Source of the DNA: a virus
Direction: 5' to 3' (one strand)
Virus record (IMG/VR): IMGVR_UViG_3300020469_000145
Span: 1 to 33,311 of that record
Length of the DNA: 33,311 nucleotides
In this document: one piece after another, positions 21,234 to 32,989 of the stretch
Layout: each line of letters begins with the position of its first letter
Position numbering within the stretch: position 1 is the stretch's first letter
The notes under the pieces: model-generated
The model's input: only the letters and a program-made list of their open reading frames with translations
Database searches by the model: none
What the model was told of the DNA's origin: nothing
Position numbers and translations under genes: made by a program

Positions 21234-22619
21234 ATGGGCAATCCATTAAAATTAATTAGAACTGGAAATGTATCAGTTGACATTCAGGAAATGTCAAATA
21301 ATGATATGAACTATATTACCCATCTGGTATTAAGAAAAGTTGCATTAGAATCAGATCTAAGTACAGGAGCTTTAAATGTATCAGGTGTTGGTACAACTGT
21401 TGGATTGTTTTCAGATACAGCACAAATTGAAGCAATTGGCCAACGGGAAGCAACAGGAGCATTTGTTACAACTACAACAACGTTATCTCAAAATCTTCAA
21501 TCAGTTTCAGAAACGACCGTATCGCCTTTGGAATTAATAAACAAACAGCCTAAACCTATATCAAGTGCTAATTTAGATAGTAATATTATATCATATATTT
21601 CTTCTAATTTAGCCAACACATCAACACCATCGATAAGTCAATATTATCTTTCAACTTCTAGCCCTGCCTTTTCAGGCACATGGGTACAAGTTGCAACATT
21701 AGAAAATACATTTGGAGGTAATAGTGGAGCTTCTTCTGAAACAATAGGCTTGTGGAAAAAAACAAATGATTCAATACCTACTACAATCAGACCATTAAAA
21801 TTAGGTGCCAATGGTACAATACAAGAAATGAGTGATGTTGAAATAGAAACATTAACAGATAGATATAGAAATAGAATTATACAAACAGGGATTGGTAAAT
21901 ATTCTTTATCAACTACACCACCAGCAACAGGAACATGGGTACAAGCAGGTAGCACATTTATTGATACAAGACAGCAAGTTACAGCAAATTCATATGTCGG
22001 AACATTTGCAGGTACATATAATAGAACATATACAGGTTTATTTACTGGTGTATTTCAAAATTCATTTACTAGGTTGTATACTGGTATGTATTCCAAAAAT
22101 TATACGAGGCTATATACAGGTCAATATACAGGACAATTTACTGGTATGTACCAAGGTTTAGTTCAGAATAATTATGCTCGAAACTTTAGTAGGGTACGAA
22201 ATGCAAACTTTACTCGTGATTATACAGGTGTGGCTAGGACTCAAACTTTTACTAGACATGTCACTTATGCATTTAGAAGGACAGTAGCTTTTCCATATAC
22301 AAGAGCTTATTTCAATAATTTCACAAAAGCATATACAGCTGCATATGCAGGAACATATACTGGGTTATTTACTGGGCTCTATTCAAGAAATTACACAGGA
22401 ATATATAGTAAACAATTTACTGGTCAATTTGCAAGGTCATATTCAAAAGCATATACAGGACAATTTGCTCGATCGTATACAGGTCAGTTTACAGGACAAT
22501 ACTCTAAAAATTTTACAAGACAATATACTGGAAATTATACTGGGAATTATACTAGTGATACAGTATCAAGTTCAACACAAAATATCTCAACAATAGCATT
22601 ATGGTTAAGGGTGGCTTAA
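21234..22619 (+). CDS. Fibre-associated protein with 47 tetrapeptide repeats (461 aa)
   Basis: Residues 1-130 form an N-terminal domain ('MGNPLKLIRTGNVSVDIQEM'), probably for attachment. Residues 137-177 carry a module with 'YYLSTSSPAFSGTWVQVA' and 'ETIGLWKKT'. A second copy starts at residue 223 ('YSLSTTPPATGTWVQAG') and ends at the C-terminus ('STIALWLRVA'). Between these two halves, residues 254-442 are a nearly perfect array of four-residue units with consensus aromatic-Thr-Gly/Arg-x, for example 'YTGQ', 'FTGL', 'YSKN', 'FARS'. By hand, 42 of 47 units begin with Tyr or Phe, 32 have Thr or Ser second, and 38 have Gly, Arg or Lys third. An AAGGA ribosome binding site is present. Location between fibre genes suggests a virion role; function is unknown. 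Confidence 0.8.
   Translation: MGNPLKLIRTGNVSVDIQEMSNNDMNYITHLVLRKVALESDLSTGALNVSGVGTTVGLFSDTAQIEAIGQREATGAFVTTTTTLSQNLQSVSETTVSPLELINKQPKPISSANLDSNIISYISSNLANTSTPSISQYYLSTSSPAFSGTWVQVATLENTFGGNSGASSETIGLWKKTNDSIPTTIRPLKLGANGTIQEMSDVEIETLTDRYRNRIIQTGIGKYSLSTTPPATGTWVQAGSTFIDTRQQVTANSYVGTFAGTYNRTYTGLFTGVFQNSFTRLYTGMYSKNYTRLYTGQYTGQFTGMYQGLVQNNYARNFSRVRNANFTRDYTGVARTQTFTRHVTYAFRRTVAFPYTRAYFNNFTKAYTAAYAGTYTGLFTGLYSRNYTGIYSKQFTGQFARSYSKAYTGQFARSYTGQFTGQYSKNFTRQYTGNYTGNYTSDTVSSSTQNISTIALWLRVA
21993..22559 (+). repeat. In-frame tetrapeptide-coding repeat array (12-base period, about 47 units)
   Basis: This 567-base array encodes 189 residues: 47 units of four codons, with one unit (ARTQT) one residue longer. 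The most regular stretch is after about 22350. Codons vary freely between units (TTT/TTC, TAT/TAC, ACA/ACT, GGT/GGA/GGG), so the period is kept at protein level rather than by recent DNA duplication. The central units around 22180-22330 are the most diverged. Confidence 0.9.
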
Positions 22620-22621
22620 AT

Positions 22622-23038
22622 ATGAAATATATCAATCCAAGATGGTTAATACCAGAAACAAGAAAACAAATAGAAGTCGATTGTTTAAATAATGATGGGA
22701 CAAGACAACGTAGTATTATTCCAAGAGATGAGCGTAATAGTGATTATCAATCTTTATTAATACAACATAGTATTGAAATAATTGAAAAAAACACTCAAGA
22801 ATCTGTGAGAATATGGAGAGAAGAAAAGGCGCGTAGGGATCAGGAGGATAGAGAAAAAGATGAGCGAGCTCACAATGAAGCACTCTTTCTTGCTAAATTA
22901 GAAATATTTGATATGGATGAAGTGAAGAATTCAACCAATAAAGATTTAAAAAGACAAATCAGGAAATCCAAAAATAAAACTGAAGTTTTAATTAATGCTA
23001 TTATTGGTATAATAAATGAACGAAACAAGACCAACTAA
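22622..23038 (+). CDS. Hypothetical protein, charged C-terminal region (138 aa)
   Basis: The likely start is the ATG at 22622, three bases after the preceding stop; an ATG at 22601 would lie inside the upstream gene and add seven residues. The N-terminus 'MKYINPRWLIPETRKQIEVD' is followed by a short beta region. A very charged helix ('RIWREEKARRDQEDREKDER', about 67-86) leads to a C-terminal segment ('AKLEIFDMDEVKNSTNKDLK' then 'RQIRKSKNKTEVL') that resembles tail-linked proteins encoded beside fibres in marine T4-like phages. No enzyme motif is seen. It overlaps the glycosyltransferase gene by 23 bases. It might be a fibre-assembly helper; function is unknown. Confidence 0.65.
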   Translation: MKYINPRWLIPETRKQIEVDCLNNDGTRQRSIIPRDERNSDYQSLLIQHSIEIIEKNTQESVRIWREEKARRDQEDREKDERAHNEALFLAKLEIFDMDEVKNSTNKDLKRQIRKSKNKTEVLINAIIGIINERNKTN

Positions 23039-23756
23039 AGGATTTATGTACTCTGCAACACGCAGAGAACCATATCTTCATAGTGCAATATACTCAGCTG
23101 AAACTCTTAAAGATTATTATCCTGATGCGAATATCATAATATATACTGAAGAAAGATGGAGACATATAGCAGAAAAAGCTGATGTTTTTAACACAATTGT
23201 TACTGATTGTCCATATGATCAACGTACTAAACTTTATATGTTACAACATACTCCATTTAATAAGACATTTTATATTGACGCTGATACAGAAATTATGCAT
23301 GAAGATATTAAAAATATATTTAATGAACTTCCAGATACTTCTGATATATGTATTACTAATATTAGAGATTATTCAGGTGCAGAAGTATATTTAACAAAAG
23401 ATAAAATTCAAAGTCATAAAATGATACATCATTGTGGTGTATTTGGCTATTGGAATAGACCTCATATATTAAAATTTATGAAAAGATGGTATGAGCAATA
23501 TCATTTTCAAAAAACCAAATCCTTTGAAATAGCAAACCCAAAATATTTATATAGTGTTAGACAGTGGGATCAATTTGCATGGTGGTACTTACTAAATGAA
23601 GAAAAATGTAATATTAAAATTAATATAATGAATGATGATGCAAGGTGGAATTTTATACACAATTACAAATCAAATGAAACAAAATCTGATATTGTTATAT
23701 ATCATCATACTTTAGTGGAAGAATGGATGAATGAACAAATTAAAAATAAAAAATAA
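23016..23756 (+). CDS. GT-A type glycosyltransferase (246 aa)
   Basis: This is a putative nucleotide-sugar-dependent glycosyltransferase. The N-terminus has the Rossmann-like start of GT-A enzymes ('KGFMYSATRREPYLHSAIYS', then 'YYPDANIIIYTEERW'), and the metal-binding D-x-D motif is D88-A89-D90 in 'KTFYIDADTEIMHED'. Downstream come 'HHCGVFGYWNRPHILKFMKR' and 'VRQWDQFAWWYLL', which correspond to the acceptor side, where a conserved Asp after W is usual. The start at 23016 keeps the complete first strand; an ATG at 23046 would cut it. No signal peptide or membrane helix is visible, so it acts in the host cytoplasm. It overlaps its neighbours by 23 and 26 bases, so it is coupled with them. Donor and acceptor cannot be predicted. 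Confidence 0.75.
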   Translation: MNETRPTKGFMYSATRREPYLHSAIYSAETLKDYYPDANIIIYTEERWRHIAEKADVFNTIVTDCPYDQRTKLYMLQHTPFNKTFYIDADTEIMHEDIKNIFNELPDTSDICITNIRDYSGAEVYLTKDKIQSHKMIHHCGVFGYWNRPHILKFMKRWYEQYHFQKTKSFEIANPKYLYSVRQWDQFAWWYLLNEEKCNIKINIMNDDARWNFIHNYKSNETKSDIVIYHHTLVEEWMNEQIKNKK

Positions 23757-24396
23757 AAACATAAATGATATTCTTTTAAATATACAAAATTCTATACTAT
23801 CAGTTGATGAGCAACTATTATATGATATTGCATATGAAAATAGGTTGGGAAGAAATGGTAAGAAATTTAACAAAAGTCTTGATATAAAAAGTGGAACAAG
23901 TTGGGATTATCATAAACATTTAATAGTAGAAGATCAAAATGGTAATCATAGTGGATGGCCTGATTGCTCGATGCTTGTTGATTATAAAAATATCTATGAT
24001 GAAAGAATAAATAGAAATGAAACAATACGTCATTGTGAAGACTTAACTTTAGAATTAGGAGCATCTAATAATTCATTAGCATGCTATTATCCTAAAAATG
24101 GTTATATAGGATGGCATCATAATGCAAATGCACATGGTTATAACGTATTATTTACATATAATGATTGTAATGGTGGTTACTTTGAAGAATATGATATTAA
24201 ATCAGATAAATATATAAGACATAAAGATGGAATAGGATGGACAGCAAAGACTGGATATTTTGGATCGCATAGGGAACCAGAAAAAAAAGTTTGGCACTGT
24301 GCAGCTAATCATAAAGGTAGAAGAATAACAATATCTTATATTATTGATCAATATGATATGTGGATGGATATGATAGATGAACTGGATAATAATTGA
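23731..24396 (+). CDS. Probable 2OG-Fe(II) oxygenase-fold protein (221 aa)
   Basis: The C-terminal half resembles phage 2-oxoglutarate/Fe(II)-dependent oxygenases. 'YYPKNGYIGWHHNANAHGYN' (residues 119-138) would hold the first metal ligand (H129) in an H-x-N arrangement, where most family members have H-x-D/E. 'KVWHCAANHKGRRITISYII' (186-205) would supply the distal His (H189) and the 2OG-binding Arg (R197 or R198). 'TAKTGYFGSH' lies between. The N-terminal 100 residues are unrecognised and basic at the start. Such enzymes hydroxylate proteins, nucleic acids or small molecules. The gene overlaps the upstream glycosyltransferase by 26 bases and the opposite-strand one by 56 bases. The missing acidic ligand means activity is uncertain; the fold call is moderate. 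Confidence 0.5.
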   Translation: MNKLKIKNKNINDILLNIQNSILSVDEQLLYDIAYENRLGRNGKKFNKSLDIKSGTSWDYHKHLIVEDQNGNHSGWPDCSMLVDYKNIYDERINRNETIRHCEDLTLELGASNNSLACYYPKNGYIGWHHNANAHGYNVLFTYNDCNGGYFEEYDIKSDKYIRHKDGIGWTAKTGYFGSHREPEKKVWHCAANHKGRRITISYIIDQYDMWMDMIDELDNN

Positions 24397-25036
24397 ATAT
24401 CCAATGATTTTTATCTAAAGATAAAAAAAAGTTTCCACCTGTTTTGTTTAATAAACACACATGCATATCCTTTTGTTCCCTTCTAATTTTTTGTTGGTCT
24501 AGATAAGAATATACCTTTAAGTCATGAAAATATCGAGTACTTTTTTTACCCAATATATTATAAAAAAATCTATCCATTGACCAAAAAGGATACCAATCCC
24601 CTCGTTCTATTGCTTTAGATATTTTTTTGTATTGATTGGATTCTCTATTAATATACATTATTGAAGAATTTATAAATGTAGGTTGAGCAATATCATCCAT
24701 ATTAGAATCATCCCCCCACTCTGGATTTATAAACAATAACGCATTTGATTCTATTTTGTTAAAGCTATATCTACTCTGTATAATAATATCTAAATCCAAG
24801 GCTATAAACTCATTAGGTAATGGAAGAATCGGATTAAAATAATGTAACTTATTCCAAGCCCCTTCATATTCACTTTTTGGCACCATATATTGTTGTATTT
24901 TATTATTAATATTTCTATAGCGATCTGTAATGCATATAAAATGATCTATCTTGTTATATTTAAAAACCATATGATATAAAGCATCAACATAAGCATTATT
25001 ATACTTATCACCAAAATTCACACACACGTATTTCAT
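24341..25036 (-). CDS. Second GT-A type glycosyltransferase (231 aa), opposite strand
   Basis: This is the only convincing minus-strand gene here. The N-terminus 'MKYVCVNFGDKYNNAYVDAL' plus 'DHFICITDRY' matches a glycosyltransferase type common in marine phages. 'GAWNKLHYFNP' (59-69) and the metal-binding D81-L82-D83 in 'FIALDLDIIIQSRY' follow. Later come 'FINSSIMYINRES' and 'WYPFWSMDRFFYNIL' (donor/acceptor site, Asp-Arg), and 'CLLNKTGGNFFLSLDKNHWI' near the end. GTGGA lies just before its ATG on the minus strand. Its last 53 coding bases lie antisense to the end of the oxygenase-like gene. Because it is reversed within a + strand late operon, it may be expressed at another time or have been acquired separately. 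Confidence 0.75.
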   Translation of the reverse strand: MKYVCVNFGDKYNNAYVDALYHMVFKYNKIDHFICITDRYRNINNKIQQYMVPKSEYEGAWNKLHYFNPILPLPNEFIALDLDIIIQSRYSFNKIESNALLFINPEWGDDSNMDDIAQPTFINSSIMYINRESNQYKKISKAIERGDWYPFWSMDRFFYNILGKKSTRYFHDLKVYSYLDQQKIRREQKDMHVCLLNKTGGNFFLSLDKNHWIFNYYPVHLSYPSTYHIDQ

Positions 25037-25455: not shown

Positions 25456-25716
25456 ATGGCAATAGATACAAATCCAGGAATCAACGCAAATACTACCACC
25501 GTATTCAGAAGTGGTAAAACAGCAATTGCTAAAGTTCAAACAGCAACACCAGAACAAGTATCCAGAATTATGTTTGGAAGTGCTGGTATAAAACAACAAG
25601 TTGTTTTTCAAGGCGATGCTACTATTAGCAATGAAGCAGCTACTAGTTTAGTTTATGATGTTGAATCCAATACGTTTTTAGTTCAGAAAGTTAGTGTACA
25701 CGGCGGATTTTTCTAA
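25456..25716 (+). CDS. Small structural protein (86 aa)
   Basis: I do not recognise a named family. The N-terminus is Asn/Thr-rich ('MAIDTNPGINANTTTVFRSG'). The middle ('EQVSRIMFGSAGIKQQVVFQ') and the end ('SLVYDVESNTFLVQKVSVHG' then GFF) are beta-rich. The C-terminal G-G-F-F is similar to the D-G-G-x-F ends of two fibre proteins further on. It lies two bases after the preceding gene and overlaps the next fibre gene by one base (TAATG), so all three are probably made together and assembled into the same structure. Confidence 0.6.
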   Translation: MAIDTNPGINANTTTVFRSGKTAIAKVQTATPEQVSRIMFGSAGIKQQVVFQGDATISNEAATSLVYDVESNTFLVQKVSVHGGFF

Positions 25717-28607
25717 TGTCTGATTATAATGTTATTCAAATAAGAACGAGTAACACAAATGACACACCAGCAAACGGTATACTGTCAAGTGGAGAACTTG
25801 CATATTCCTTTACATCTAATGATTTGTTCATTGGATCCGTATCAGGTAATGTTCCCATATTAGTAGCTCGAAGTAATGATACAGCTAAATTAAACTTTGG
25901 AGAAACAATAGCAAATGTACAAGCTACAGATGTAACAATATCAAATACATTAACTGTAAACGGGGATATACTTCTTAGAGGTAGTGCTTTAACAATTGGA
26001 GATGGCAATGATATCATATCTTTAGGAGCTACAGTAAACACCAATATTATTCCAACTACTAATACAACTTTAAATTTAGGTAGTGATACAAATTATTATT
26101 CAAATCTTTTTGTATCCTCGGTCTATTTAACTGGGGATCCAACAGAAAATTTACAAGCAGCAACTAAACAATATGTAGATACAACTCTATCCACTGCTGT
26201 TTCTAGTATATCATCAATAGCAAATTCAATCCCATTAGGTATTCCTGATGAAGACGGTATATATTCTAATGGAAAATCAACAACAGCTGAAGGTGCTGTA
26301 ACATCATTAACTTCTTCCACCAACGTATCAGATGCGGTAGATAAACTAAATGAAGTTATGTTAAATGTATATAACAATACATATGTAAGAGATGTATCAT
26401 TTACAATTAGTAATACAGCAGGTGGAGCTCCACTAGATACAGAATTAACAATTACAACAACAGGAAATCCAAATAGATTTGATATAAGTTGGGGAGATGG
26501 AACATTTTCTAACAACACAAGTGATTCAACTCCGAATCATACATATACAAATACTTCTGGGGGATCATATAATATATCTGTAGTAGCATTCAATAATAAT
26601 GCCTTAGGAGAAGGTAATAATGCAACTACTACAGTAAATAATGCAATAGTTGTCTTTACTCCTGATCCATCTGCAGCATTTACAATACATGATGCATTGA
26701 CTAACGGAAATACTATTATTGAAGCCAATACAGGAGATCAAATATTTCTTGACAATAATACAACCAATGCTAATGGAGTCGTTGCTACATTTCATATCAA
26801 TTGGGGAGATGGAACATCAGATTCAATATCTAATACATCAGTAGAAGGTGGAACAGAAGGATCTAGAATAGATCACATCTATACATCAGATACAGGTTTT
26901 AGTACTAATACTATAACATTATCAATCAATACTCATTCAACTGCTAATCCAGCCTCTTTACCAGATAGTATAACAAGTGTTATAAAAATATTTGATACAA
27001 GTATTGCTCCTCCTCAAGGCTTAGCAAATAAAACATTTACATTATCTTCAAGTTCTGTTGGTTCCTCACCAAGAGTTGCATCAGGATTTATTGACAACTC
27101 TAGTGGAACGACATTAAATGTTGGAGACACACCTATAAGATATACAACTTCAGGAAACATACAAACATCAGGTTCTGTTACAACCCAATTTACACATGAT
27201 GCGGATAATGGTACACTCACAGCTTTAATAGACAATTCAGCTGACGGAAGTATCACATTTGATTCAAATGATAATTCTGGTACATATGACTCATTAGTTA
27301 TAATTGATGAAAGTGATTTCAATCAATTTAGTAATACAGGAACTAGTGTTTCTAATATTCAGAAGATATATGCCTCAGGATTGTATTCAGGATTTAAAAC
27401 TAGAATAAGTAAAAATAATTTATCTATTGGAGCTCATACATATAAATTATTTCATAGTACAACAGGTAATACAAATCAATTAGATTTTATAAAAGATAAC
27501 TTAACATCAACTCCAAGTATAGATTTTTCAACAACAACAGTTACAGAAAATACAGCTGGGACTTTAGCATATGTTTCAGGTATTCCATATTATACAAATA
27601 ATGCTAAGATTAATGTTATAGGTACAAAAATAACAAACTTAACAGGACAGACATATAGAAATACAACAACTCCTTTTACTTTTGGTAGTGGCCAAATATT
27701 TGAAGGAGAATCTGGGTCAATAATAAATTCTCAAAGTAAAACATATACTATTTTACCATCATCCCAATTAAATTCAAATTATCCAATAGCCAATACAGGA
27801 ATGTCATCTCCTATAACATTAGATACATTTCAATTAAATATTAATGGAGGAGGAAAAAGAGTACAGGGTTTCAATATGAATGTTAAAAATGTTAATGGAA
27901 CGAGTACGTCTGTTAATTTTAGTAATACAAAAATCTCTGTAATGAATGGATCTTCTTCTGGTATAAATGAATTGGCAATTCCTGTGAGTGATTCATTAGG
28001 AGCAACCTTTGATGATGATGCTGTAAGAATAACTGGATTTACAGGAGTCAATCCTACTTTCTCAAGTTCAACAAATTACTATACAGGTTCAACGTGGAGT
28101 GGAGCTCAAACTATTATTGGTACTGATGAAGCTGTAATTAGATACGGATCTCTTCAACACTTTGCTTCAGATTTAAGCACTGGATTCTTACCAGCTGGTC
28201 CTAATCTTAGTTCAGGTCGATCAGGTACACAAAAAATAATAATTGCATTTAGAAGAACCCAAGTAGCTAACTTTAATGTCACATTGAGTGGAAGAGTTTC
28301 TTCTTTTCATATTGCTGCTCCTGGAACAGGTATAGATTCTGCATCAACTTTAAATGGATGGTTAGATGCTGGAGATACCTATGCTGGTAGCGGTATACCT
28401 GGAGGTAATACAGGAAGCGGTGGTAATGGATCAGATGGATGTGCATTTACATCAGGAGATACAATTCTTGCAAATACTACATATAATAACAGAAGTTTCC
28501 AATTGACATTAGGTAGTGAAAATGGCACTAATGCATTTGGAAATCAAATATTAATATCAATTGGTCTTTCATCAGGCCAATCTATATCTGCGTTGAGTAT
28601 ATCATAA
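25716..28607 (+). CDS. Tail-fibre protein with two PKD-like domains (963 aa)
   Basis: This is a probable host-recognition fibre. Residues 1-55 hold the G-E-L-A attachment module ('NGILSSGELAYSFTSNDLFI'). Residues about 108-155 carry the 'NIIPTTNTTLNLGSDTNYYS' module shared with the 785-residue fibre and 'LQAATKQYVDT', shared with the last gene. Residues about 226-316 and 318-428 are two PKD-like immunoglobulin folds, each with the W-G-D-G turn (259-262 and 363-366) and an H-x-Y-T strand ('NHTYTNTSGGSYNISVVAF', 'DHIYTSDTGF'). Such domains often mediate carbohydrate or surface contacts. The tip is Gly-rich ('WLDAGDTYAGSGIPGGNTGS', 'GSDGCAFTSGDTI'), of a kind common at fibre ends. The stop overlaps the next gene by one base. 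Confidence 0.85.
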   Translation: MSDYNVIQIRTSNTNDTPANGILSSGELAYSFTSNDLFIGSVSGNVPILVARSNDTAKLNFGETIANVQATDVTISNTLTVNGDILLRGSALTIGDGNDIISLGATVNTNIIPTTNTTLNLGSDTNYYSNLFVSSVYLTGDPTENLQAATKQYVDTTLSTAVSSISSIANSIPLGIPDEDGIYSNGKSTTAEGAVTSLTSSTNVSDAVDKLNEVMLNVYNNTYVRDVSFTISNTAGGAPLDTELTITTTGNPNRFDISWGDGTFSNNTSDSTPNHTYTNTSGGSYNISVVAFNNNALGEGNNATTTVNNAIVVFTPDPSAAFTIHDALTNGNTIIEANTGDQIFLDNNTTNANGVVATFHINWGDGTSDSISNTSVEGGTEGSRIDHIYTSDTGFSTNTITLSINTHSTANPASLPDSITSVIKIFDTSIAPPQGLANKTFTLSSSSVGSSPRVASGFIDNSSGTTLNVGDTPIRYTTSGNIQTSGSVTTQFTHDADNGTLTALIDNSADGSITFDSNDNSGTYDSLVIIDESDFNQFSNTGTSVSNIQKIYASGLYSGFKTRISKNNLSIGAHTYKLFHSTTGNTNQLDFIKDNLTSTPSIDFSTTTVTENTAGTLAYVSGIPYYTNNAKINVIGTKITNLTGQTYRNTTTPFTFGSGQIFEGESGSIINSQSKTYTILPSSQLNSNYPIANTGMSSPITLDTFQLNINGGGKRVQGFNMNVKNVNGTSTSVNFSNTKISVMNGSSSGINELAIPVSDSLGATFDDDAVRITGFTGVNPTFSSSTNYYTGSTWSGAQTIIGTDEAVIRYGSLQHFASDLSTGFLPAGPNLSSGRSGTQKIIIAFRRTQVANFNVTLSGRVSSFHIAAPGTGIDSASTLNGWLDAGDTYAGSGIPGGNTGSGGNGSDGCAFTSGDTILANTTYNNRSFQLTLGSENGTNAFGNQILISIGLSSGQSISALSIS
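26391..26999 (+). repeat. Tandem PKD-like domain pair in the 963-residue fibre
   Basis: Two successive copies of roughly 90-110 residues are encoded. Both have the sequence order strand - (D/N)-x-S/N-W-G-D-G-T - H-x-Y-T - strand. They are clearly diverged, so the duplication is old. The second copy has a longer loop after W-G-D-G. Confidence 0.7.
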
Positions 28608-30111: not shown

Positions 30112-31539
30112 ATGGCGTCAATTATTAAACTAAAAAGAAGTACAACCCCAGGTGGTGTACCAGCTAATAGCGCATTAGCTGAAGGTGAATTAGCCATCAA
30201 CATTGTTGACAAGAAATTATTCTCGTCTAACGGTACATCAGTCTTCCCAGTTAGTGGAGATCAATACAATCTGGAACAAAGTGGTAACGCTACTGCAGCC
30301 ACTGTAACATTAACTGTCGACAATACCAATCAGACCAATGATAGTATTGTAATTGCTGGTAGTGGTACAAATATAGTTTCAGGTAACTCATCACAAGTAA
30401 CTGTTACTGGAACAACATACAATGTTGGAACCAGTGGTAATACTACACAAGGTAATATTACATTAACAGGTACCGGTGGAGGAGATTCTGGTGTAGGAAC
30501 CGATGTTTCAAAAATAGTTGGAACGGGTGGAGCAGTAGTTGCTGGTAATAGTTCACAAATAACAGTAGAGACTAGTACATACGAATTAGGAACAACTGGA
30601 AATTCAACAATCGGTCAAGTAACACTAACACCTGCAGGTGGTGGTGATTCATCAACAGAAACAATTGTTTTTGCTGGAGGTGCTGATATAGGTATTTCTG
30701 GTAACAGCACACAAATAACAGCAGTTAACCAATCTACATTAGAAACTGTTACAGGAAGAGGTGCTACTACATCTCAAGCTATTACAATTAATAATACATT
30801 AGCGGCCGGTAATACGACTATTACAGGTAAAGTAGAAGCTACAACAGCTGAATTTGGTAACACAGATATAACAGGAACATTAACAACAACAGGTGGTTTG
30901 GGTATTTCTGGTGCGTTAGAAATAACTGATGCAACTCAATCATCAAGTAATACAACCGGTTCTATTATAACAGCTGGTGGTATTGGTACTAGAAAAAACA
31001 TTACTGTTGGAGAAAACCTTAGCGTAGAAGGAACATCAGGATTTACTGGTAATGTAGTAATGTCAGATGCAGCATCTATTACTAACACTTTAACAGTAGG
31101 TGGTGTTCTTGATATTAATGATACAACAGATGCGTCAAATACGACATCAGGAGCAGTTCAAGTAGCTGGTGGTGTTGGAGTTGCAGGGAACACTCATATT
31201 GGGGGTGAATTGCATGTGGGTAGTCACGCAGTTATAGGTGGAAACCTAACTGTTCAAGGTACTACAACAACAGTGTCATCAACAACAGTAGCTGTTACTG
31301 ATAATATGTTAGCGTTAGCATATGATCAAACAGGAGATAATACAGATGCAGTTGATGTTGGTTTTTATGGAACATATGATGAGTCAGAGGTCGATAAGTA
31401 TAGAGCTTTCTTTTTTGACAAATCCGAAGGTGCATATGTAGCGACAACAGGATTAACACAAGTCCCAGGTGGTGAAGTTGTATATACAGATGCAAATTTA
31501 GCACGATTAGATGCAATCATCGACGGTGGTACATTCTAA
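30112..31539 (+). CDS. Tail-fibre protein with G-E-L-A head and three 50-residue repeats (475 aa)
   Basis: A strong AAGGAG ribosome binding site lies 7 bases before the ATG. Residues 1-50 are the attachment module ('IIKLKRSTTPGGVPANSALA' then 'EGELAINIVDKKLFSSNGTS'), frequent at fibre N-termini. Residues about 51-204 are three repeats, each beginning Y-N/E-L/V-x-x-S/T-G-N and ending G-N-S-S/T-Q-I/V-T. Residues about 215-400 are a G-N-T-x-I / V-x-G-x-L shaft. The C-terminal part contains 'NLTVQGTTTTVSSTTVAVTD' followed by 'NMLALAYDQ' and 'AVDVGFYGTYDE', a fibre domain common in T4-like phages, and ends D-G-G-T-F. A strong terminator follows the stop, so this gene closes a transcription unit. 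Confidence 0.85.
   Translation: MASIIKLKRSTTPGGVPANSALAEGELAINIVDKKLFSSNGTSVFPVSGDQYNLEQSGNATAATVTLTVDNTNQTNDSIVIAGSGTNIVSGNSSQVTVTGTTYNVGTSGNTTQGNITLTGTGGGDSGVGTDVSKIVGTGGAVVAGNSSQITVETSTYELGTTGNSTIGQVTLTPAGGGDSSTETIVFAGGADIGISGNSTQITAVNQSTLETVTGRGATTSQAITINNTLAAGNTTITGKVEATTAEFGNTDITGTLTTTGGLGISGALEITDATQSSSNTTGSIITAGGIGTRKNITVGENLSVEGTSGFTGNVVMSDAASITNTLTVGGVLDINDTTDASNTTSGAVQVAGGVGVAGNTHIGGELHVGSHAVIGGNLTVQGTTTTVSSTTVAVTDNMLALAYDQTGDNTDAVDVGFYGTYDESEVDKYRAFFFDKSEGAYVATTGLTQVPGGEVVYTDANLARLDAIIDGGTF
30262..30723 (+). repeat. Three in-frame ~50-residue repeats in the 475-residue fibre
   Basis: Copies begin near 30262, 30415 and 30577. Each encodes a Y-N/E-L/V start, an S/T-G-N turn, a V/I-T-L-T strand, a Gly/Asp-rich loop and a closing G-N-S-S/T-Q-I/V-T strand. 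The second and third copies are the most similar (both with G-G-G-D-S loops). Confidence 0.75.
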
Positions 31540-32002: not shown

Positions 32003-32989
32003 ATGTCGTCGAAGATTTTTATTAAACGCACGTCCGTTGCTGGACGTACGCCCAATACTACAAATTTAGGTACGGGTGAATTAGCGCTTAACATGATTGA
32101 TGGAATCATGTTTAGTTCTAACGGAACTAATATCTTTGAAGTCGGTGCCAATGTTTCCTTATTAGCAGCCAACTCTATATCAGTAAACAGTCAATACTCA
32201 CTTCCAACTATAGATGGAACTAATGGCCAGACTATTATTACAGATGGTAATGGTGCTCTATCTTTTTCTGATCCTGGCCAACTAGCTGATGATACTGTAG
32301 CCAACAATCTTGTTATTGAAGGTAATCTAACAGTAACAGGTAATATAACTTACATTAATAGTACTGAACTTAATATTGGTACTAATTTTATTAATTTAAA
32401 TACTAGAGTTGATGCTAATACAAATTCACCATTTGATTCTGGTATTAATATTAATAGAGGTGCATTACCCAATACAGCATTGTATTTTGATGAGACTGAT
32501 GATAGTTGGAAATTCACTAATAATGGTTCTGACTACATATCTATTTTTACTGGATTAGAAGATGTATTATCTGCAAATGCAGTAGCACATTCTACAATTG
32601 AAGCTAATAATATTACAGCAAATGACATTACTGCAAACAATGTAGATCTTAATGTTATTAATATAAGCAATAATATAATAAAAACAAGCAATTCTGCTAC
32701 CACATCATCGCTAGCTACAGCAGTTATAGATTCCTATTCCAAGAGCTTATATTCATCCTCTCAATATCTCATTGAAATGAATTCATCATCAGGAAAGCAA
32801 TTTACTCAAATAAATGTTGTATATGATGCAAATAATGTACACATATCAGAATTTGGAAAAGTATCAACAAGTTCAGATCTAGGCAATTTTTCAGCTGAGA
32901 TGTCAGGAACAGATGTTAGATTGATAGTAACGCCCACACTTTCTACATCAATAGATATAAAAGTTTATCGTACATCTGTAACAATATAG
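32003..32989 (+). CDS. Tail-fibre protein with G-E-L-A head (328 aa)
   Basis: AAGGA lies 6 bases before the ATG. Residues 1-50 hold the attachment module ('IFIKRTSVAGRTPNTTNLGT' then 'GELALNMIDGIMFSSNGTNI'), parallel to that of the 475-residue fibre. Residues about 110-180 contain 'NLTVTGNITYINSTELNIG', 'DSGININRGALPNTALYFDE' and 'WKFTNNG', the common T4-like fibre module with an N-x-x-R-G turn. The last 85 residues ('YSSSQYLIEMNSSSGKQFTQ', 'INVVYDANNVHISEFGKV', 'IDIKVYRTSVTI') form a beta-sandwich-like tip of a type often found at fibre ends. The first ~30 codons use CGC, ACG, TCG and GCG unusually often compared with the rest of this AT-rich region. Confidence 0.8.
   Translation: MSSKIFIKRTSVAGRTPNTTNLGTGELALNMIDGIMFSSNGTNIFEVGANVSLLAANSISVNSQYSLPTIDGTNGQTIITDGNGALSFSDPGQLADDTVANNLVIEGNLTVTGNITYINSTELNIGTNFINLNTRVDANTNSPFDSGININRGALPNTALYFDETDDSWKFTNNGSDYISIFTGLEDVLSANAVAHSTIEANNITANDITANNVDLNVINISNNIIKTSNSATTSSLATAVIDSYSKSLYSSSQYLIEMNSSSGKQFTQINVVYDANNVHISEFGKVSTSSDLGNFSAEMSGTDVRLIVTPTLSTSIDIKVYRTSVTI

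Follow-up and report, generated by a model that had tools for sequence, protein, structure and literature searches.

A family of tetrapeptide-array proteins with mirror-matched arms in uncultured viral genomes, a probable variant of the phage tail fibre

The window (the stretch of DNA that was analyzed) comprises the whole of a 33,311-base IMG/VR record. By ORF reading, an array gene, a putative fibre gene, is located at 21234..22619 (+); it encodes 461 amino acids, arranged as three homologous modules and a tetrapeptide array. Upstream are, in order, gp6, a pair resembling gp7/gp8, a 2045-residue DUF4815 protein occupying the VrlC position, a small protein, and another fibre gene. The array gene comes directly after this run of VrlC-like, small virion, and fibre genes; the order is as in Pelagibacter phage HTVC008M. 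The host recognition cluster described in pelagimyophages matches this region (PMC7029224). The gp6 of the window was closest to those of phages of Caulobacter and Sinorhizobium. An earlier note on this DNA had placed the gene in a virion cluster; the gene context agrees, and suggests that the product is a component of the virion.

Three genes on the same strand follow. The first, d1 (22601..23038, +), encodes a charged protein of about 150 residues that is a possible assembly partner; a protein of its cluster is encoded in 75 of 84 loci. The second, d2 (23016..23756, +; 73 of 84 loci), encodes a predicted GT8-like GT-A glycosyltransferase with the motif D88-x-D90, and the third, d3 (23731..24396, +; 68 of 84 loci), a conserved probable enzyme with an invariant W128 H129 x N131 ... 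H189 ... R198. An opposite-strand ORF in the cluster (24341-25036, -) features an ALDLD stretch that recalls GT-A glycosyltransferases; it had no Pfam match. Farther along, three proteins (25716-28607, 30112-31539, and 32003-32989) share a similar start, IxIKRSxxxxxxP...GELAxN, and look like a paralogous fibre set; the protein of 25716-28607 gave a weak match to Mtd_N (E 0.0024).

The array occupies residues 254-442 of the window protein (21993-22559). With one slip allowed, which is sited at about residue 338, position 1 was aromatic in 42 of the 47 units, as the earlier note had counted. At fixed phase, the halves of the array contained 18 and 24 aromatics. When the same residues were shuffled 2000 times, the best single phase contained 14.4 on average and never more than 22. 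The codons in the array were mixed: Thr was encoded by ACA (17), ACT (15), and ACG (1), Gly by GGT (10), GGA (7), and GGG (3), and Arg by AGA (6), AGG (6), CGA (3), and CGT (1). Such variation among synonymous codons means that the array is no recent tandem repeat at the DNA level. For 23 same-length pairs of relatives, pN/pS was 0.14 for the modules, 0.18-0.22 for the arms, and 0.24 for the tip. The codon variety and the low pN/pS (about 0.2) together argue that the repeat is selected as protein, which bears out the earlier proposal. The tip was only slightly more variable than the arms, which does not mark it out as a receptor site; a hypervariable tip in that role was considered, and the difference in pN/pS gave it no clear support.

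Module homology was computed by pairwise profile comparison. The N-terminal 250 residues were found to be three copies of one module (96.4%, 97.2%, and 99.2%), and control profiles gave no match. All parts of the protein are encoded on the + strand. Module 1 (residues 1-96; 21234..21521) was predicted by AlphaFold2, at a pLDDT of about 90 or more, to have two strands, a helix, and an end hairpin (54-64/77-86) with a short loop; in hhalign it matched module 3 at 97.2% (E 3.5e-11). Module 2 (residues 97-184; 21522..21785) has a predicted end hairpin (149-160/167-178), ends in a strand with LWKKT, and matched module 3 at 99.2% (E 2.2e-19). The first part of module 3 (residues 185-253; 21786..21992), delimited using AlphaFold2 and hhalign, has a strand leading into the array (GTWVQAGSTFIDTRQQ). 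There follow an N-terminal arm of 20 tetrapeptide units (residues 254-333; 21993..22232), a tip (residues 334-354, ARTQTFTRHVTYAFRRTVAFP; 22233..22295) that holds both the slip and the array midpoint at about residue 347, and a C-terminal arm of 22 units (residues 355-442; 22296..22559) that, in the model, runs back. The closing strand of module 3 (residues 443-461, ISTIALWLRVA; 22560..22616), recognized by conservation and hhalign, carries a C-terminal motif that is nearly universal among members; nearly all end in a motif resembling ETVSTIKLWVRTA. In the best module pair (2 versus 3), the alignment spanned the array, and the post-array strand LWLRVA aligned with the closing LWKKT of module 2. 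Since the alignment crosses the array, the insertion site is placed between the final two module 3 strands, and the array is read from the sequence as a giant insertion in that module's end hairpin. All AlphaFold2 runs were of a single chain. In addition to the two hairpins given above, the model of the window protein paired strands 242-262 and 431-459 around the array; the modules had a pLDDT of about 90, and most of the array was below 50.

Sequence searches of Pfam, PHROGs, and the PDB with the window protein yielded no real relative. None of the Pfam repeat models matched it, the PDB contained no match to it at E 1 or below, and the family profile matched no fibre there. A related-locus search with the window protein sequence alone also gave no match. 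Relatives were collected from uncultured viral contigs using a repeat DNA pattern and then a profile; at least 463 were found. From the fetched loci, 173 distinct complete proteins were assembled, and the fold was judged from about 150 relatives. Array size across the family ranged from approximately 12 to more than 280 units, and the nearest relatives of the window protein (L203 and L204) had the same modules and a different array. The four-residue period was kept in the homologues; neither loss of the period nor plain drift occurred. The statement of the earlier note that the repeat could be assigned to no known family stood after searches of Pfam, PHROG, and the PDB and with Foldseek.

Among 50,697 phage records, the only full-length relative was from Phage C48C1 (L001 13983-24026), a protein of 3348 residues encoded in the same gene order as in the window. 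It has inserted segments that look globular, one of them duplicated, and also TRTSTRTS stretches. Four loci (L012, L098, L112, and L119) carried tandem array genes, one longer and one shorter. One Enterococcus phage record was present among 65 matches to the repeat query. In bacterial and archaeal genomes, the repeat DNA pattern retrieved 117 loci, one of which was a family member; the other 116 were rejected as unrelated 12-base DNA repeats and the like. A contig labelled Rhodobacteraceae (L414 2854-5013) carries the fibre, d1, and d2 genes and is probably a binned phage contig; the label is a hint at the host group. A search of one literature library retrieved no paper on such a tetrapeptide array or on phage C48C1.

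The earlier note did not remark that the two halves of the array mirror each other. Mirror symmetry and paired arm changes were computed across the family. The sequences are related, and the counts are not of independent events; one sequence per group or independent pairs were used where possible in the insert, coupling, and arm-change tests, and all distinct proteins were taken into the Phe/Tyr offset test. In 51 of 68 arrays, where 5.0 were expected, a tip motif (e.g. YTLFYGGSVGGNFTG) was located no more than 3 residues from the midpoint; a plain correlation for the tip offset, distorted by motifs that had been misassigned, was r 0.23. Phase-breaking inserts of two residues were equidistant, in units, from both array ends: 76 of 97 exactly, and 94 of 97 within one unit. 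Permutations with random placement reached at most 34 and 63, respectively. Counted from both ends, the inserts fell at 5, 7, 9, and 11 in one member and at 5, 10, 15, 20, 25, 31, and 36 in another. The count of four-residue units was even in 25 of 34 insert-free arrays. Whether a unit of one arm held Phe or Tyr predicted which of the two stood in the facing unit of the other arm, with a mean r of 0.74 at one offset (80 sequences) and perfectly in 34 sequences; at eight other offsets, |r| was ≤0.24, and the permutation maximum was 0.07. Residue couplings between the arms were confined to sums of 0, -2, -4, and -6. All of these are even, which indicates pairing on the same face in an antiparallel sense, as expected if aromatics face glycines. 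In close relatives, changes in arm length were equal in 19 of 38 pairs, and most of the others were within two residues; between L049 and L145, the arms differ by 32 and 32 residues.

The mirror was kept in several arrays of about 980 to 1110 residues (L098, L012, L119, and L253; z 5 to 11) and was not significant in the very long members L112 and C48C1 and in several second paralogues. No mirror signal was given by basic residues at position 3. A gapped mirror alignment was weak in mid-size arrays (median z 1.1), and the offset-specific Phe/Tyr test was therefore relied upon instead. The window array is less regular than those of many members, with units of a more basic character than in most. 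It has a 21-residue irregular stretch (334-354) around its midpoint, with arms of 20 and 22 units; its Phe mirror (r 0.42) peaked at the family offset, and one other offset equalled it. Given this weaker symmetry, the fold was argued from the family. The slip described in the earlier note does exist, and it is no accident: it sits in the tip at the array midpoint.

Because the array starts and ends in one small module and its halves are mirrored, the chain would go out and return. Taken together, sequences and models indicate that the array is not a one-way solenoid but an out-and-back chain in which the arms are held to the same length, unit for unit. For the short homologue L067, AlphaFold2 predicted one long hairpin of strands 235-287 and 290-351 with a turn between them; the pLDDT of the arms was 53-63, and the turn was 1-2 residues off the register given by the couplings. 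Foldseek returned no match at E 0.001 or below for the window model against the PDB or for the L067 model against BFVD. When the L067 model was compared using VIA-align, only T4 gp11 (1EL6), the connector of the baseplate to the short tail fibre, and its KP1 homologue reached a Z of 2 or more. The match was on the module 2 hairpin, and kinship does not follow from a Z of 2.2 across 45 residues; there was no sequence match.

Among known systems, the T4 long tail fibre offers a likeness. In the receptor-binding tip of T4 gp37 (crystal structure 2XGF), each chain extends along a thin rod and comes back to the collar, mid-sequence residues forming the tip; its needle is a homotrimer of six antiparallel strands in which HxH motifs bind iron. 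According to the mirror tests and the L067 model, the array family would likewise run out and back with its tip in mid-sequence. However, no sequence similarity to gp37 was found in the PDB searches, the window array is without HxH metal motifs, and the family has four-residue aromatic units and arms that are variable but length-matched. Pentapeptide and hexapeptide beta-solenoids also have a short regular repeat in beta conformation, but they are one-way coils of period 5 or 6, whereas the array has a period of 4 and appears to go out and back. Aliphatic V/L-T-G-N/D tetrapeptide stretches are present in cyanophage structural proteins; one of these, S-RIM2 SWTG_00067 (L123 4417-10155), has a period of four with Thr-Gly at positions 2-3. 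It was rejected as a relative: it had been matched via the repeat alone, its position 1 is aliphatic (LTGNVTGN), its modules are unrelated, it has no cassette, and no mirrored arms were seen in it. The earlier impression that Y-T-G-N-like stretches occur in other marine T4-like phages drew no support from this match, which is outside the family.

Linkage of the downstream cassette was computed in both directions. All of d1, d2, and d3 were present downstream of the fibre gene in 63 of 84 loci. In the reverse search, which covered the best 80 matches of each profile with d2 and d3 profiles built from fibre loci, the fibre gene was present in all 133 of the 133 d2/d3 loci having at least 1.5 kb upstream, and d2 and d3 occurred together in 151 of 152 loci found by one or the other. 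No Pfam or PHROG family was found for d1. D88 and D90 of the d2 DxD motif were invariant in 22 sequences. The d2 profile matched glycogenin-1 at E 0.005 across the 90 N-terminal residues; Glycos_transf_2 was weakly matched by 11 of 22 d2 members, and Pfam GT2 and Nucleotid_trans were below cut-off. From the DxD motif and these matches, d2 is predicted to be a GT8-like glycosyltransferase. Glycogenin attaches glucose to tyrosine; by analogy, its place as the nearest solved relative of d2 fits a tyrosine-rich substrate and proves nothing. Profile searches found no family for d3. Its identification as a 2OG-Fe(II) dioxygenase, suggested by eye from the motif HxN (H129-x-N131), H189, and R198, was not upheld: Asn replaces the Asp/Glu of the HxD/E...H triad. 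PHROG matches to the 2OG superfamily were weak and limited to two members (E 0.016 and 0.042), a 27-member d3 search gave no 2OG PHROG match, and hhalign to nine phage 2OG oxygenases was no better than controls. Mimivirus collagen comes with its own hydroxylase and glycosyltransferase (PMC9546862). The likeness, a virus-encoded repeat fibre with an enzyme pair that would modify it, is one of analogy only; the array family is without collagen triplets, and d3 is no established hydroxylase.

We consider it likely that the array protein serves as a subunit of a T4-like phage fibre, composed of a base of modules and a long two-arm hairpin, and that the neighboring enzymes most likely modify the fibre. 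The base would be formed by the three small N-terminal modules. Modules 1 and 2 would each close with a short beta hairpin formed by their last two strands, and the corresponding hairpin of module 3 would be drawn out into two long antiparallel arms of Tyr/Phe-Thr/Ser-Gly/Arg-x units, which would meet at the mid-array tip and return to the base. The aromatics of one arm would lie opposite the glycines of the other and diagonal to an aromatic of the same kind, an arrangement under which the arms must match unit by unit. Length would evolve by the gain or loss of units in both arms, and the number of units would set the length of the rod; for the window, with arms of about 80-90 residues and a rise of 0.33 nm for each, the rod would be some 30 nm long. 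Several chains probably bundle their hairpins along the aromatic face, probably as a trimer. The rod would project from the baseplate region, with its tip meeting the host, and the d2 glycosyltransferase and the adjoining d3 most likely modify the fibre. The location in the virion, the oligomer, the receptor role, and the modification are what we infer from the foregoing. More tentatively, with slightly less than even confidence, we propose that these fibres form a new class, found almost only in uncultured aquatic viruses: an antiparallel aromatic beta-hairpin rod of tunable length, whose arms co-evolve unit for unit and which is decorated by two dedicated enzymes.

The earlier note had thought of a four-residue solenoid or a triple-stranded fibre. 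The fibre part of that suggestion is the likely reading, and the solenoid part gave way to the common module at the array ends and the mirrored halves. A one-way solenoid or triple-stranded fibre whose symmetry arose by chance or duplication accords with the regular period and the fibre-like context, yet it is very improbable: the array begins and ends within one module, and such a structure gives no reason for mirrored inserts, a midpoint tip, the Phe/Tyr mirror, or paired length changes. DNA duplication yields no reversed order in the protein, so selection on the fold is required; direct, unmirrored alignment of the halves gave little signal in long arrays. The strict unit phase and equal arms, together with site-specific couplings between the arms, need a defined fold and weigh against an aromatic/Arg-Gly sticker protein of low complexity that would phase-separate or gel instead of folding. 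That account draws on the alternation of aromatic and basic residues, the Arg/Lys-rich window array, and the low AlphaFold2 confidence there, and we regard its chances as slim in the extreme. A stronger competitor, if still somewhat unlikely, is antiparallel pairing between chains, with the N-arm of one subunit against the C-arm of another, either in a domain-swapped dimer or in a six-stranded trimer like the gp37 needle. Domain-swapped pairing would be expected to give the same couplings as pairing within a chain; phage fibres are usually trimers, and bare hairpins would expose their aromatics. Against it, AlphaFold2 draws the hairpin within one chain, having been given one chain only.

The role of the enzymes is a separate matter. 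The glycosyltransferase and d3 may act on host lipopolysaccharide, blocking co-infection, and merely adjoin the fibre gene; GT8 genes in pelagimyophage host-recognition clusters have been so interpreted (PMC7029224). We hold this to be rather unlikely in view of the fibre gene's presence throughout the loci of the reverse search (133 of 133, for the best 80 matches of profiles that came from fibre loci), the nearly constant co-occurrence of d2 and d3, and the keeping of the gene order in the distant member C48C1.

The array proteins constitute a new protein family, most likely of variant phage tail fibres, whose fold rule is unusual and has strong support. If the two-arm hairpin fibre is correct, fibre length would follow a simple sequence rule of equal arms, matched units, and a tip in the middle; fold, register, and length could be read from sequence, and a simple protein material would be offered. 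The family is common in viral metagenomes (more than 460 contigs) versus one named phage genome, so that a frequent part of aquatic T4-like virions would have been left without a name. The close association with a glycosyltransferase would put protein glycosylation, not alteration of host lipopolysaccharide, in the host-recognition island.
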